From: Candidatus Promineifilum breve
GTDB taxonomy: Bacteria > Chloroflexota > Anaerolineae > Promineifilales > Promineifilaceae
NCBI RefSeq assembly: GCF_900066015.1
Contig: NZ_LN890655.1
Location: 1,094,726 to 1,158,725, forward strand
Direction: 5' to 3'
Length of the DNA: 64,000 bases
Made by a program: the position numbers and the translations under genes. Shown here piece after piece: positions 16,630 through 22,654 of the stretch. The stretch's first letter is position 1. The number at the start of each line of letters is the position of its first letter. Below the pieces are notes generated by a model. It was not told the DNA's origin. It did no database searches and was given only the letters and a program-made list of their open reading frames with translations.

Positions 16630-18396
16630 CTAATACTCTTCGACCGGCAGGCCGTTCTTGGTCTGATCGACGTGCTCCAGGATGGAACGCGCCCCGCTGA
16701 CGGCCGTGTCGCCCTGTGTGCCCAGCATGGCCGCCAACTCGCGCACCCGGCCGTCGGTGTCCAGCGCCGTCACGTGGGTGGTGGTGCGCCCGTCGGCCAC
16801 GGCCTTGCTGACGTGGAAGTGGGCGTCGCCATAGCCGGCCAGCTGCGGCAGATGGGTGACGACGACGACCTGGTGATTGGCTTCGGCGGCCAGGCTCCAT
16901 AGCTTGCGGCCCACGATGTCGCCCACACGCCCGCCGATGCCCTGGTCGATCTCGTCGAAGATGAGCGTCGGCGTCTCGTCCACCCCGGCCAGCGCCGTCT
17001 TCAGGGCCAGCATCAGCCGCGCCGTCTCGCCGCCGCTGGCGACGCGGGCCATCGGCTTCAGCGGCTCGCCGGGGTTGGCCGAGATGAGGAATTCCACCTC
17101 GTCGATGCCCGACTGATCGAACGCCAGCCGCTGTTGCGCGCCATCGATGGTCACGTAGCAGCCGCCCGGCGACGGTTGGGCGCGAAAATCGACGCCGAAA
17201 CGCGCCCCGGCCATCTTGAGGTCGGCCAGATGAGCCTCAGCCGCCGCCGACAGGCGCTCGGCCGCGGCCCGCCGCTGGCGCGATAGCTCGCCGGCCAGGC
17301 GGCCCACGCTGCGCAGATAGGCCTCCTGCTCGGCCTCCAGTTCGGTCGTGCGCGCGCCGCTATTTTCCAGTGTGATGAGTTCGGCCTCGGCTCGATCGCC
17401 GGCGGCCAGCAGCCCGGCCACGTCGCTCTCGCCATACTTGCGCTTCAGATCGCTGATCGCCTCCAGCCGCGCTTCCACGCCGTTCAGCCGTTGCGGGTCG
17501 TATTCCAGCGAATCGAGGTAATCCTGAATGTCGGCCGCGGCCTCGTTGAGTTGAAAGCCCAACCCCTGCACGTTCGCCAGCGATTCGGCGCGGGTCTCGT
17601 CCAGCCGGGCCAGTTGGGCCAACGCATGCTCCACCCGGCCCAGCAAATCGACCACCGCCGGGCGATCCTCATCGACGGTGATCAGCAGGGCCACGGCCTC
17701 GCCGGCGAAGCGGCCCAACTGCTCGGCGTTGGCCAGCCGCACGCGCTCCACGCGCAACGTCTCTTCCTCGTCGGGGCGCAGCGCGGCAGCGGCGATCTCC
17801 TGGGCTTTGAACTGGAGCATCTCGATGCGTTGGGCCATGTCGCGTTGGCTACGGCGCAAGCTCTCCAGTTCGCGCTGCACGGCCTGGAGCTTGTGTACCT
17901 CGGCCGCCAGCGCGCGGCGCTCGCCGTCCAGCCCGCCGAAGGCATCAAGCAGCGGCAAATGGGCGCGCGGCCGCAGCAGCGACAGATGCTCCCCCTGGCC
18001 GTGGATGTCGATGAGCGGGTCGGCCAGTTGGCGCAGGATGGCCAGGCTGACGGTGCGGCCGTTGACGCGGCAAATGTTGCGGCCGTTGGCCCGCATCTCC
18101 CGCGCCAGGACGACGAACTCGCCCTCGTCCTCGTCCAGCCCCTCGGCCTCCAGCAGCGGTTGCAGCGTGTCGCGCAGGGCTGACTCCAGGCGGAAGGTGG
18201 CCTCCACGTAAGCCTGGTCGCTGCCGGCGCGGACGGCGGTCGTATCGGCCCGCCCGCCCAGCACCAGCATCACCGCGTCGAGGATGATCGATTTGCCCGC
18301 GCCCGTCTCGCCGGTCAGCACGTTGAAGCCGGGATCCAGCCGCAGACGTAGTTCTTCGATAATCGCGAAATTGCGAATGTACAGTTCCGATAGCAT
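16630..18396 (-). CDS. recN: DNA repair protein RecN
   Basis: RecN is an SMC-like ATPase that helps hold broken DNA during recombination repair. The 588-aa protein has the split ATPase head: Walker A FNVLTGETGAGKSIILDA near residue 30, ABC signature VASGGETARLMLAL and Walker B TLIFDEIDQGIGGRVG near the C-terminus. A coiled-coil middle lies between (about residues 160-370). The length is close to the normal 550-570. It lies in a same-strand run with the gene at 18409 upstream (12 bp) and the glycosylphosphotransferase downstream. Confidence 0.95.
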   Translation of the reverse strand: MLSELYIRNFAIIEELRLRLDPGFNVLTGETGAGKSIILDAVMLVLGGRADTTAVRAGSDQAYVEATFRLESALRDTLQPLLEAEGLDEDEGEFVVLAREMRANGRNICRVNGRTVSLAILRQLADPLIDIHGQGEHLSLLRPRAHLPLLDAFGGLDGERRALAAEVHKLQAVQRELESLRRSQRDMAQRIEMLQFKAQEIAAAALRPDEEETLRVERVRLANAEQLGRFAGEAVALLITVDEDRPAVVDLLGRVEHALAQLARLDETRAESLANVQGLGFQLNEAAADIQDYLDSLEYDPQRLNGVEARLEAISDLKRKYGESDVAGLLAAGDRAEAELITLENSGARTTELEAEQEAYLRSVGRLAGELSRQRRAAAERLSAAAEAHLADLKMAGARFGVDFRAQPSPGGCYVTIDGAQQRLAFDQSGIDEVEFLISANPGEPLKPMARVASGGETARLMLALKTALAGVDETPTLIFDEIDQGIGGRVGDIVGRKLWSLAAEANHQVVVVTHLPQLAGYGDAHFHVSKAVADGRTTTHVTALDTDGRVRELAAMLGTQGDTAVSGARSILEHVDQTKNGLPVEEY

Positions 18397-18408: not shown

Positions 18409-19293
18409 TTAGCGCATTTGCCAATAGGCGGCACTGGCCCCAACGAACAGATAGATGGCCGGGCCAATCAGGTTGAATAAGCCCACCATGCCGGTCAGAA
18501 AGCCCAGAAACACTGGGATTGCCACGCCCAGCACCATCATGGCGACGACCAGGGCCGGCAGATAGCGCCCGCGCCGCCCGCCGATGGCCCGCTTGGTGAT
18601 GCGGCCGATGAAGCCGCCGACAGCCCCGCTGATGAAGAAGATGAGCAGGAAAAACACAAACATACCGCCGGCAAAGCGGGTCATCAGGTAACCGGCCAGC
18701 AAACTAATGGGCAACGAGACCAGCGCGGCCACCAGATAATCAATCGGGCGGCTATTGAAGAAAGCGTCCTCGGCGTCGCGCTGGCACTCGGGGCAGATGT
18801 AGCCGACGGGCGTCTTGTTGGCGCAACTGATGCAGATGGGCCGGTTGCAATTGTAGCAGCGCAGCGACGTGGGACGGTCGGGGTGGCGGTAGCAGACCAG
18901 TTCGTAGGCGGCGGCCTCCGGCTTGGCTTCGCCAGGAACGCCGAGGGCGCGCTCCAGGCTCGTGGCCGCTTCCGGCGGGGCGGCTGCTTTCACGACCTCG
19001 ACCGGGGCCAGCGCGGCCTCAACTTCCGGCGGGACGGGGCGGCCGTCCAGCCGGGCCAGCCCGGCCACGGCGGCGGGCATGTCGGGGGCCAGCGCCAGGG
19101 CGCGCTCGTAGGCGGCGCGCTTCTCGGCCGGGTCGCCGACGACCGCGGCCAGCCCGGCCCAGGCTTCGGCCACGTCGGGCGCGTCGCTCAATATTTGCCG
19201 GTACATGCTCTCGGCCGCCGCATTCTTGCCGTAGGAGGCATTGCGCTCAGCCTGCGTGAGCAACGTCCGCAATCTGGGGTCTGTGATCATCAT
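18409..19293 (-). CDS. membrane protein with N-terminal TPR and B-box-like zinc finger
   Basis: I do not recognise a named family for this 294-aa protein. Residues 1-95 look like two or three TPR-type helical repeats (AAESMYRQILSDAPDVAEAW, AAYERALALAPDMPAAVAGL). After an A/P-rich linker, residues 133-175 form a B-box-like zinc site with CYRHPDRPTSLRCYNC, CISC and CPEC. The C-terminal half has about four transmembrane helices and a basic loop (TKRAIGGRRGRY). Rhomboid-type and other membrane proteins in related bacteria often carry a B-box finger at the same position. The combination suggests a membrane-anchored scaffold (inference). It lies 12 bp upstream of recN. Confidence 0.7.
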   Translation of the reverse strand: MMITDPRLRTLLTQAERNASYGKNAAAESMYRQILSDAPDVAEAWAGLAAVVGDPAEKRAAYERALALAPDMPAAVAGLARLDGRPVPPEVEAALAPVEVVKAAAPPEAATSLERALGVPGEAKPEAAAYELVCYRHPDRPTSLRCYNCNRPICISCANKTPVGYICPECQRDAEDAFFNSRPIDYLVAALVSLPISLLAGYLMTRFAGGMFVFFLLIFFISGAVGGFIGRITKRAIGGRRGRYLPALVVAMMVLGVAIPVFLGFLTGMVGLFNLIGPAIYLFVGASAAYWQMR

Positions 19294-19539: not shown

Positions 19540-20409
19540 TTAAAAGCGTCCGTCGCGGTTCTGGCCGATATTCAAGTGGGGCCAGCTAAAGCCCAGCCGG
19601 CCCATCAACCGGCGATAGAAAAAGCCGGCGCTCTCCACCCGCGCGAAGCTGCACGTCCGCTCGTGGCGGGTGATGACGATCTCGTCGCCGTCCTGCACCA
19701 ACGTGCTCTTCTGGCCGTCGGCGGTCAGATAAGCCTCGTAGCCGCGCTCGACCTGAATGGCGATGCGGGCGTTCTCGTGCAGCACCAGCGAGCGGTTCAG
19801 GCTCAGATGGGCCGCCACCGGGACGATGACCAGATTCTGCAACTGTGGCGGCAGCAGCGGCCCGCCGGCGGCCATGGCGTAGGCCGTGGAGCCGGTCGGC
19901 GTGGCGACGATGAGGGCGTCGGCGATGTAGGTCGTCACCAGATCGTCATCGACGCGCAGATGCAGCTGAATGACCCGCGCCTGCGCGCCGCGGCCGATCA
20001 CCACTTCGTTGAGCGCGGTAAACGGCTCGATCAGTTGCCCGCCGCGCCACAACTCAGCGTGGAGCAGCAGCCGCCGCTCGATCCAGTAGTCGCCGCCCAG
20101 CAGCCGCTCCAGCTTTTGCGGCCAGTTCTCCGGCGTGGCCTCGCTCAGAAAACCCACGCGGCCGACGTTGATGCCGAAGATGGGCACGCCAAAGGGCACG
20201 GTCAGGCGCGCCGCCCGCAGCGTGGAGCCGTCGCCGCCCAGCACGATGAGTAACGACGAGCCGTCGATGGGCGCGTCGAGAGCCTCGTCGTCGAGCGGCG
20301 CGGCCGTCCATGAGGCAATGCCGCGCGCCGCCAGCCACGCCTCCACCTGCCGCGCCAGGGGCGCGGAGTCGGGCAGGCGCGGTTGCTCCAGGATGCCGAT
20401 GCGATTCAT
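19540..20409 (-). CDS. nadK: NAD kinase
   Basis: NAD kinase phosphorylates NAD to NADP in the cytosol. From the ATG at 20409 the protein has 289 aa. It has the family's GGDGSTLRAAR nucleotide site, the INVGRVGFLSE block in place of the usual NLGFLTE, the substrate stretch ALNEVVIGRG, and TPTGSTAYAMAAGGPLL. The reading frame remains open far upstream inside hisS, but only the 20409 start gives a normal N-terminus. It lies 14 bp after hisS and is probably co-transcribed with it. Confidence 0.94.
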   Translation of the reverse strand: MNRIGILEQPRLPDSAPLARQVEAWLAARGIASWTAAPLDDEALDAPIDGSSLLIVLGGDGSTLRAARLTVPFGVPIFGINVGRVGFLSEATPENWPQKLERLLGGDYWIERRLLLHAELWRGGQLIEPFTALNEVVIGRGAQARVIQLHLRVDDDLVTTYIADALIVATPTGSTAYAMAAGGPLLPPQLQNLVIVPVAAHLSLNRSLVLHENARIAIQVERGYEAYLTADGQKSTLVQDGDEIVITRHERTCSFARVESAGFFYRRLMGRLGFSWPHLNIGQNRDGRF

Positions 20410-20423
20410 GGGCCAGAAAGCGC

Positions 20424-21707
20424 TCAGGCGGCCAGCCGTTCCCGGAGCCAGTCGACGACGCCAGCCAACGCGACCGGCGTCTGTTCTTTGTCGCCCATCA
20501 TCAGCCGGGCGGCGACCAGCCCCTCGGCCAGCTCGTTCTCGCCGATGATGAGGGCGTAGCGGGCATGGTGGTTGTCCGCCTCGCGCATCTGGCTCTTCAG
20601 GCTGCGACCGTGCCGGGCAAAGGCCAGGCGTGTGCCGATGCCCGCGTCGCGCAGGCGGTCGGCCAGTTGGACGGCGGCCGTCTTGGTGGCCCCGCCGAAG
20701 TGGGCGATGAGCACCGGCAGCGGCGTGGCTGGGGGCGGCGCCACCCCCTGCTCCTTCATGCCCAGCGATACCCGCTCGACACCGATGCCCACGCCGACGC
20801 CGGGCGTGGAATCGCCGCCGATGTCCTCGGCCAGCCCGTCGTAGCGCCCGCCGCCGCATAGCGCCGCCTGCGCACCGATGCCCTCCTGCCACACCTCGAA
20901 GACCGTCTTGGTGTAGTAGTCGATGCCCCGCACCAGCCGGAAATTGATGCTATACGATTGGCCCAGCGCGTCGAGCAATTCGCGCACCCCGGCGAAGTGG
21001 TCGCGGCAATCGTCGCACAGGTGATCGGCGATATGGGGCGCGCCGGCCAGCAGCTCGTCCATGCCGGTGGCCTTGCTATCGAGCACGCGCAACGGGTTCT
21101 TGGTCAGCCGCTCCTTGTCGATGCCGGCCAGCTTGTCGTAATGGTCATTCAGATAGGCCACCAGCAGGGCCAGATAGCCCGGCCGGCACACCCGGCAGCC
21201 GGTGCTGTTGAACTGGAAGGTCAGCCCCTTGAAGCCCAGATCGCGGAAGAGGCTCATCGCCAGCATCATAATTTCCACGTCGGCCGCCGGGTCGTCCTCG
21301 CCCAATATCTCGCAATTGATCTGGCTGAACTGGCGCAGGCGTCCGGCCTGGGGGCGCTCGCGGCGGAAGGAGGGGCCGATGGTGTAGAGCTTCACCGGCC
21401 TCGGCCAGGCTTTCATGCTGTTCTGAATATAGGCACGCACGAACCCGGCGGTGAATTCGGGCCGCAGGGTGATGCTGGAGCCGTCATCCTCCTTGATGGT
21501 GTACATCTCTTTCTGGACGAAGAAATCGGAGCCTTCGCCCACGCCGCGGCTGAATAACTCTGTGGCCTCGATGATCGGCGTCTCGATGTGCTGAAAGCCA
21601 TAGCGCCAGGTCACGGCCTCGGCCGCGGCGATGATGGCATCCCAATAACGGCGCTCATCGGGCAGCACGTCGGGCATGCCGGTGAGCCGCTGGATAGTTG
21701 TGGACAA
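20424..21707 (-). CDS. hisS: histidine--tRNA ligase
   Basis: This class II aminoacyl-tRNA synthetase charges tRNA-His. The 427-aa protein has motif 1, motif 2 (SFRRERPQAGRLRQFSQ), the histidine-specific LVRGIDYYTKTVFE and CGGGRYDGL loops, and the C-terminal anticodon-binding domain. The best start is TTG at 21707: GGGAGG lies five bases upstream, and the next residues (STTIQRLTGMPDVLPDE) are typical for the family. The longer frame back to 21740 lacks a ribosome site. A promoter is predicted at 21762-21790. Confidence 0.95.
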   Translation of the reverse strand: MSTTIQRLTGMPDVLPDERRYWDAIIAAAEAVTWRYGFQHIETPIIEATELFSRGVGEGSDFFVQKEMYTIKEDDGSSITLRPEFTAGFVRAYIQNSMKAWPRPVKLYTIGPSFRRERPQAGRLRQFSQINCEILGEDDPAADVEIMMLAMSLFRDLGFKGLTFQFNSTGCRVCRPGYLALLVAYLNDHYDKLAGIDKERLTKNPLRVLDSKATGMDELLAGAPHIADHLCDDCRDHFAGVRELLDALGQSYSINFRLVRGIDYYTKTVFEVWQEGIGAQAALCGGGRYDGLAEDIGGDSTPGVGVGIGVERVSLGMKEQGVAPPPATPLPVLIAHFGGATKTAAVQLADRLRDAGIGTRLAFARHGRSLKSQMREADNHHARYALIIGENELAEGLVAARLMMGDKEQTPVALAGVVDWLRERLAA

Positions 21708-21761
21708 AGTAACCTCCCACCGTCGGCGCGCGCGAGCCACGCCGCCAAATTGTAGGCGTCT

Positions 21762-21802: not shown

Positions 21803-22351
21803 TCAGGCCAATCGACGGTCGCAGGCGGCGCGTACACCGCAGGCCACGCAGCGCCGCCGGTCGTCGTGGCCGGGGTCGGGGTCTTCTTCTTCGCGGGCGG
21901 CGCGCATTTCGTCCAGCACATCGAGCAAATCCGCTTCCAGATCGGGGGTATAGTCGATGGCGAAGGCGCGATCTTTATATTGCAGAATGCCGTAGGGCGG
22001 CCGGACGCCGTAGTTGGTCTCCACCAGCAGGCAGTAGGCGGCCAATTGCAACACCTGCCCCTCCCACGGCGTGGTCGGGGCCGGGCTGGATTTCAGCTCG
22101 ACGGGGATGATTGTGCCGTCGTTCTGCTCCACCAGATAATCGGGCTTGCCCACCAGGCGCAGGTGGGCGGCGTGGAGCACGTCGTTATTGGCCCGCCAGG
22201 CGCCGGTGTCGGTGTAGATCACCTGCCAGGCCGGCAGCCCGCTCTCCCGGCGCATATCGCGGCCACGGAACCAGAGCACGGCGGCCACGAAGAGCAGCAG
22301 CAACACCACCGCCAGGGGTAAGCCGCTCATCATCATGGTTTGCCCGGTCAT
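21803..22351 (-). CDS. Cas4/RecB-like PD-(D/E)XK nuclease, C-terminal half with a membrane anchor
   Basis: This 182-aa protein starts with one transmembrane helix (PLAVVLLLLFVAAVLWF). The rest is the catalytic half of a Cas4/RecB-type nuclease: metal motifs II and III GKPDYLV and IPVELKS (D..ExK), motif IV QLAAYCLL, and a C-terminal three-cysteine cluster CVACGVRAAC like that binding a 4Fe-4S cluster in Cas4. Motif I and the fourth cysteine are missing here but are present in the gene just upstream (22373-22612). The two are in the same frame, separated by a UGA and seven codons. A GGGAG site precedes this ATG, so separate translation is possible. No cas genes or CRISPR array are nearby. Confidence 0.78.
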   Translation of the reverse strand: MTGQTMMMSGLPLAVVLLLLFVAAVLWFRGRDMRRESGLPAWQVIYTDTGAWRANNDVLHAAHLRLVGKPDYLVEQNDGTIIPVELKSSPAPTTPWEGQVLQLAAYCLLVETNYGVRPPYGILQYKDRAFAIDYTPDLEADLLDVLDEMRAAREEEDPDPGHDDRRRCVACGVRAACDRRLA

Positions 22352-22372
22352 CGCCTCATCTCCCTTGCCCCG

Positions 22373-22612
22373 TCAGCCGGATAGCAATTGGAAGACCAGC
22401 ATGGCCACGGCCACGAACAGGGCCACGTAGGCCAGGCGGCGGAACAACATCGACCGCTCCACCAGGCGGCCATGGCGGGCATGGTGGGCCGTGCCGGCGC
22501 GCATCTCGGTCACATTCGACGAGGACACGGCCCGCACCCGGCGCAACCACCAGGCCCGACGGCAATAGATATAGTCGCCAATTTCGCTGGCGCGAATCCA
22601 GGGATAGCTCAT
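22373..22612 (-). CDS. Cas4/RecB-like nuclease, N-terminal half with a membrane anchor
   Basis: This 79-aa protein begins IRASEIGDYIYCRRAWWL, the N-terminal signature of Cas4-like nucleases with the single conserved cysteine. It continues through MRAGTAHHARHGR, which fits motif I (G..H). It ends with a transmembrane helix, LAYVALFVAVAMLVFQLL, and a UGA stop at 22375-22373. The reading frame then continues RGKGDEA into the next gene. Together the halves rebuild a nuclease of about 269 residues with a two-helix membrane hairpin between motifs I and II. Either this is a genuine split enzyme or a nonsense-interrupted gene. The start is nearly leaderless, with a -10 box seven bases upstream. Confidence 0.72.
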   Translation of the reverse strand: MSYPWIRASEIGDYIYCRRAWWLRRVRAVSSSNVTEMRAGTAHHARHGRLVERSMLFRRLAYVALFVAVAMLVFQLLSG

Positions 22613-22619
22613 ATGTTCT

Positions 22620-22654
22620 ATTGTAGTTATAATGGGGGCGGCGTCAAGTGGCAA
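22620..22654 (-). promoter_or_regulatory. overlapping promoters of the Cas4-like gene, partly inside a repeat
   Basis: Two overlapping promoter solutions are visible on the minus strand. One is TTGCCA (22654-22649) and TATAAC (22631-22626), 17 bp apart. The other is TTGACG (22647-22642) and TACAAT (22625-22620), 16 bp apart. The first -35 box lies in the 7-bp repeat run at 22646-22682. The second would start transcription at or next to the ATG. Confidence 0.55.

Follow-up and report, generated by a model that had tools for sequence, protein, structure and literature searches.

A candidate two-chain, membrane-anchored Cas4-family nuclease encoded by separate genes in Chloroflexota

On the minus strand of the window, the whole stretch of 64,000 nucleotides of Candidatus Promineifilum breve DNA that was analysed, two short genes follow each other between positions 22612 and 21803. 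The upstream gene (22373..22612), here called the N half, encodes a 79-residue chain corresponding to the N-terminal part of Cas4; its translation opens with MSYPWIRASEIGDYIYCRRAWWLRR and closes with LLSG in front of a TGA stop at 22375-22373. The downstream gene, the C half (21803..22351), encodes a 182-residue chain with the remainder of a Cas4-type nuclease. Its start is ambiguous and may be the ATG at 22351 or ATGATGATG at about 22336, the point at which several relatives start (MMMSG). The two genes are separated by a spacer of seven codons (22352..22372, same strand), the length and frame of which vary in relatives, and in the window N-half frame, TGA, spacer and C-half ATG are all in one frame. 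At one contig start among the relatives (L010 / L058) the C-half frame is joined to translated sequencing-adapter-like sequence (FFFFFQAEDGIRDLVRSRGLGDVYKRQ), which is assembly contamination at a contig end.

The N half is preceded by a consensus-like promoter on the minus strand (22620..22647) with TTGACG at 22647-22642, 16 intervening nucleotides and TACAAT at 22625-22620, and the ATG starts 7 nucleotides past this -10 box. In 60 of the 76 N halves a TAnnnT box occupies positions -17..-10 relative to the start. This position just upstream of the ATG, kept in the relatives, suggests leaderless initiation, and the N-half mRNA is probably leaderless. In front of the C-half start SD-like four-mers are found in just 10 of 80 relatives, so that translation of the C half is likely to be coupled to that of the N half where the genes touch. 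The GGGAG site before the second ATG, which had originally been taken as evidence for a two-chain design, is therefore not a conserved feature.

Do the two chains together constitute a Cas4? The NCBI Cas4 profile TIGR00372 (cut-off 65) matches the N half over positions 2-48 with 24.6 bits and the C half over positions 60-178 with 58.2 bits, both under the cut-off, whereas the halves joined through the stop score 78.9, above it. The scores with PF01930 are 37.9 bits for the C half and 49.0 for the joined chain, both above the cut-off of 22.7. The 4Fe-4S cluster of Cas4 is held by one N-terminal and three C-terminal cysteines, and the four Cas4-type cysteines are distributed in this 1+3 manner across the two chains. 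The N half contains the first of them (C17), the CRRAWW motif and the motif I histidine (H44), the C half GKPDY (D71), PVELK (E85, K87), Q102/Y106 and C168-x2-C171-x5-C177. In alignments of relatives C17, H44, D71, E85, K87, Q102, Y106 and C168/171/177 are invariant or near-invariant, and all 81 C halves examined from Anaerolineae have the PD, ExK and QxxxY motifs. Some relatives from other classes have GKPTY, ARPAY or GKPSY instead and hence no catalytic aspartate, suggesting that nuclease activity is not universal in the family. The C-terminal cysteine cluster is retained in the five loci noted for this loss (L149, L150, L157, L161, L162). Each chain moreover contains a hydrophobic segment predicted to form a transmembrane helix, at the C-terminal end of the N half (residues 60-78; window KD 2.36) and near the N-terminus of the C half (residues 10-28; window KD 2.71).

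An AlphaFold2 model of the joined chain, for which the alignment was composed of N-only rows, C-only rows and six read-through rows from relatives, reached a pLDDT of 91.8 and a pTM of 0.87, with helices at 34-85 and 97-124, the proximity of the halves being assumed in the input of a single read-through chain. This model superimposes on Cas4 of a Cas4/Cas1/Cas2 complex (7mi4_A) with a Z score of 20.4 and an rmsd of 2.4 Å over 179 aligned residues. Helix hairpins yield chance matches in such comparisons, yet the rows with Z 12-20 are all Cas4- or RecB-type nucleases. By profile, residues and predicted fold the joined protein is a member of the Cas4 family. The original prediction had been made from two frames in register, separated by TGA and seven codons, from complementary Cas4 signatures and from one membrane helix in each half, and all three observations were confirmed, by translation, by the adjoining profile matches and by the hydrophobic segments, respectively.

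What does the TGA between the halves signify? Within the same GTDB family the C half is found in 48 of 52 genomes, and wherever the contigs allowed it the N half lies just 5' of it as a frame of its own. In these pairs the upstream gene ends with TAA, TAG or TGA, the relative frame is 0, 1 or 2 and the spacing ranges from overlap to 161 nucleotides; across a wider set of relatives it extends from overlapping (-10) to more than 700 nucleotides. In a second collection consisting of MAGs, profile searches detected the N half in the locus of 75 of 80 C halves, 52 of these pairs within 300 nucleotides (frames 14/14/24) and 23 farther apart, with TGA (29), TAA (28) and TAG (18) as N-half stops and many ATGA overlaps. 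Among 121 genomes with both positions listed, 62 pairs are within 300 nucleotides (frames 15/19/28). As the frames vary in this way and 15 of these 62 pairs share one frame, close to the one third that chance predicts, the shared frame in the window is a one-in-three accident. A further 31 pairs have up to 3 kb between the halves and in 25 genomes the halves are on different contigs. The longer gaps contain a whole gene, encoding a helical-repeat-like or a small secreted-looking protein. The helical-repeat-like protein (211-220 residues, same strand, no Pfam match) lies between the halves in many Anaerolineales (L078, L089, L099, L115, L118, L120, L126), and 22 of 80 loci have it 5' of the C half; in L074 and L111 a secreted-looking protein of 140-151 residues takes its place. 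An in-frame stop at a conserved position, the mark of genes with UGA read-through, was not encountered among the relatives, in which identity, frame and spacing vary and the halves are sometimes unlinked. Three N halves (G058, G126, G205) appeared to have stops inside; the two that were read directly have normal ends, with the match reaching their own stop. Early apparent fusions among the relatives were overlapping genes on inspection.

A single protein produced by reading through the UGA or recoding it, for instance as tryptophan or selenocysteine, could be imagined from the window, where the halves share a frame and only one stop intervenes, and a change of one base would join the frames there, as would be the case if a gene for a single chain had been misread in sequencing or had recently acquired a nonsense mutation. 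Read-through is nevertheless most improbable in view of relatives that use any of the three stops, differ in frame, overlap, have a gene between the halves or carry them unlinked, and because the apparent internal TGAs, in the two cases read directly, are matches that run up to the normal stop of the N half. Error or mutation is more remote still, since two genes are found in genomes of the same genus and in all families with readable context, both halves are under purifying selection in the genus (dN/dS 0.08-0.31 for the N half and 0.06-0.22 for the C half, one saturated pair set aside) and the source genome, in 3 contigs, has a completeness of 99.96%. Judged from these sequence comparisons, the UGA is the ordinary end of a 79-residue gene, neither a mutation nor a recoded codon. 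The heading of the original prediction, a nuclease interrupted by UGA, consequently had to be given up. Of the explanations it had offered, recoding is refuted by the varied stops, the three frames and the unlinked halves, and mutation by the conserved two-gene arrangement. The two-chain option is upheld by separate genes that vary in stop, frame and spacing and sometimes have a gene between them or lie apart. It had also been considered that homologues might all be single uninterrupted chains, which fails as those in Chloroflexota are mostly two chains and only two fused copies were found.

Are these separate genes also partners? Profile searches in 298 class-level genomes detected the N half in 198 and the C half in 201; 196 genomes have both, 5 only C, 2 only N and 95 neither (Fisher p 7e-69, phylogeny ignored). 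In the single-contig genome G271 the halves are 434 kb apart and in G205 182 kb, on opposite strands. From unlinked halves together with such strict co-occurrence it follows at the sequence level that N and C are independent genes that nonetheless travel together. In addition, both are missing from seven genomes that are at least 95% complete and belong to families otherwise carrying both (G041, G090, G091, G092, G107, G285, G303), which argues for repeated joint loss. Beyond the class, the pair is present in Chloroflexus aurantiacus (G439), Herpetosiphon aurantiacus (G432) and further Chloroflexota families outside Anaerolineae, the homologue searches having been centred on Chloroflexota with the outside of the phylum sampled in part. 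Judged from this distribution the split is old and predates the divergence of Anaerolineae and Chloroflexia. No relatives of the pair were found in the viral contigs searched.

Furthermore, in two members of family f75 (L161, L162) the halves are fused into single open frames of 353 and 330 residues, with both membrane helices as a two-helix hairpin between the Cas4 motifs. Split relatives of these chains exist (L149, L150), one of them in the same genus. Both fused copies are from draft assemblies, in which a frameshift error at an overlapping junction is possible, though less likely with two separate cases. The two fused copies point to a joint action of the halves as a single protein; whether the fused chains are ancestral or were re-fused is judged from their position within a family that is otherwise split.

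A single hydrophobic helix is present at the end of 76 of 76 N halves and at the start of 79 of 79 C halves. The mean number of lysines and arginines around the N-half helix is 3.6 before versus 0.2 after, and around the C-half helix 0.03 before versus 2.9 after, the excess being before the helix in every N half and after it in every C half. By the positive-inside rule this charge bias would place the soluble parts of both chains in the cytoplasm and the two helices antiparallel, like a hairpin cut at its outer turn.

The reading of the pair as a two-chain, membrane-anchored Cas4-family nuclease has in our estimate a probability of about 0.8, based on sequences and the predicted structure. Briefly, the N chain would provide one of the cluster cysteines as well as the motif I histidine, and terminate in a membrane helix, and the C chain would open with a membrane helix and provide the aspartate, the ExK and QxxxY residues and three cysteines. 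Within the membrane the helices could associate as a hairpin with a cut outer turn, and the halves would thereby form a single Cas4 domain that has one active site and one [4Fe-4S] cluster shared between the chains. Such an enzyme might have a housekeeping function at the membrane, in repair or in the processing of DNA ends, independently of CRISPR. That the chains pair physically in the cell, bind the cluster, act as a nuclease and have a housekeeping role is what we infer from the sequences. The wider proposition, an ancient phylum-wide two-subunit nuclease that is activated by assembly in the membrane, with shared cluster and active site, and places DNA-end processing there, is favoured by a narrow margin over its negation.

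How does the pair compare with known nucleases? Cas4 elsewhere is a compact, single-chain, soluble nuclease. The pair is like Cas4 (TIGR00372/PF01930; 7mi4, 8d3l, 4ic1, 4r5q) in the PD-(D/E)XK fold, the 1+3 cysteines, the histidine, the aspartate, ExK and QxxxY, but consists of two chains, has a membrane helix on each and lies outside a CRISPR locus. RecB-family domains also match the fold (AdnA Z 15, EXO5 Z 13, Dna2 Z 12, AddB Z 10) and share the Fe-S nuclease logic; the domains of AdnAB, AddAB, Dna2 and EXO5, however, are single-chain, mostly helicase-fused and soluble. An Fe-S enzyme cut within its catalytic domain, with membrane-tied halves and ligands divided 1+3, is to our knowledge unusual. 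Solo-Cas4 genes, i.e. those outside cas loci, are reported by Hudaiberdiev et al. (2017; PMC5704561) to occur in many Chloroflexi and to be monophyletic there. These may include C halves of the pair; passages of that account retrieved by term search make no mention of a split, two-gene or transmembrane organisation. No paper on a split or membrane Cas4 was found in a search that covered the literature without most subscription journals, and as far as this literature shows the two-chain membrane design is undescribed. The pair is easily missed because each half falls under the NCBI Cas4 cut-off. It would represent a natural split enzyme whose halves could be exchanged and recombined and, for a phylum in which DNA repair has received little study, a tangible candidate for DNA processing located at the membrane. 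With Chloroflexus aurantiacus and Herpetosiphon aurantiacus as cultured carriers it is open to testing.

As to the function, the genes downstream of the C half, all on the minus strand and assigned by Pfam, are hisS (20424-21740), nadK (C-terminal part of the ORF 19540-20892), a gene for a membrane protein with TPR and B-box-type zinc finger (18409-19293) and recN (16630-18396). Among 59 Anaerolineae loci with at least 4 kb of downstream sequence, nadK, the TPR/B-box protein and recN are found 3' of the C half on the same strand in 50, 50 and 49, respectively. Adjacency of nadK and recN is known from many bacteria in any case. Unlinked N halves adjoin smc (L131, L135) or recA (L133). The gene before the pair encodes an M50 protease in Chloroflexia and an HD-domain protein in family f75, and since the neighbours differ between classes the context points to repair in Anaerolineae only. 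In the source genome the pair (1116531-1117337) does not lie next to cas1 or cas2; the genome's other Cas4, at 2644998, sits beside the only cas1 found (C1:2646268). The original statement that no CRISPR or cas genes are nearby is thereby upheld. Its suggestion of a general role in DNA repair or uptake fared unevenly, as repair is better supported by the nadK-recN context, and uptake, proposed because of comF and Flp pilin genes in the window, is not, neither being among the recurrent neighbours in the survey of relatives' loci. From gene context, a role of the pair in DNA repair may be regarded as an even bet.

Alternatively, the Cas4 fold could have been kept for its cluster, in a membrane Fe-S module for DNA binding or redox sensing that is not a nuclease. 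The frequent neighbour nadK and the loci in which the aspartate is lost and the cysteines are kept (L149, L150, L161, L162) would fit such a function, but with PD, ExK and QxxxY kept in all 81 Anaerolineae C halves it appears unlikely. Comparably doubtful is a nuclease acting on DNA that crosses the membrane, be it in competence or in degrading incoming phage or plasmid DNA: the membrane anchoring and the kinship of Cas4 to defence nucleases would agree with it, whereas comF and pilin genes do not recur beside the pair, and its class-wide spread and absence from viral contigs look like housekeeping rather than defence. As a separate observation on the locus, the TPR/B-box membrane protein is kept between nadK and recN across Anaerolineae.
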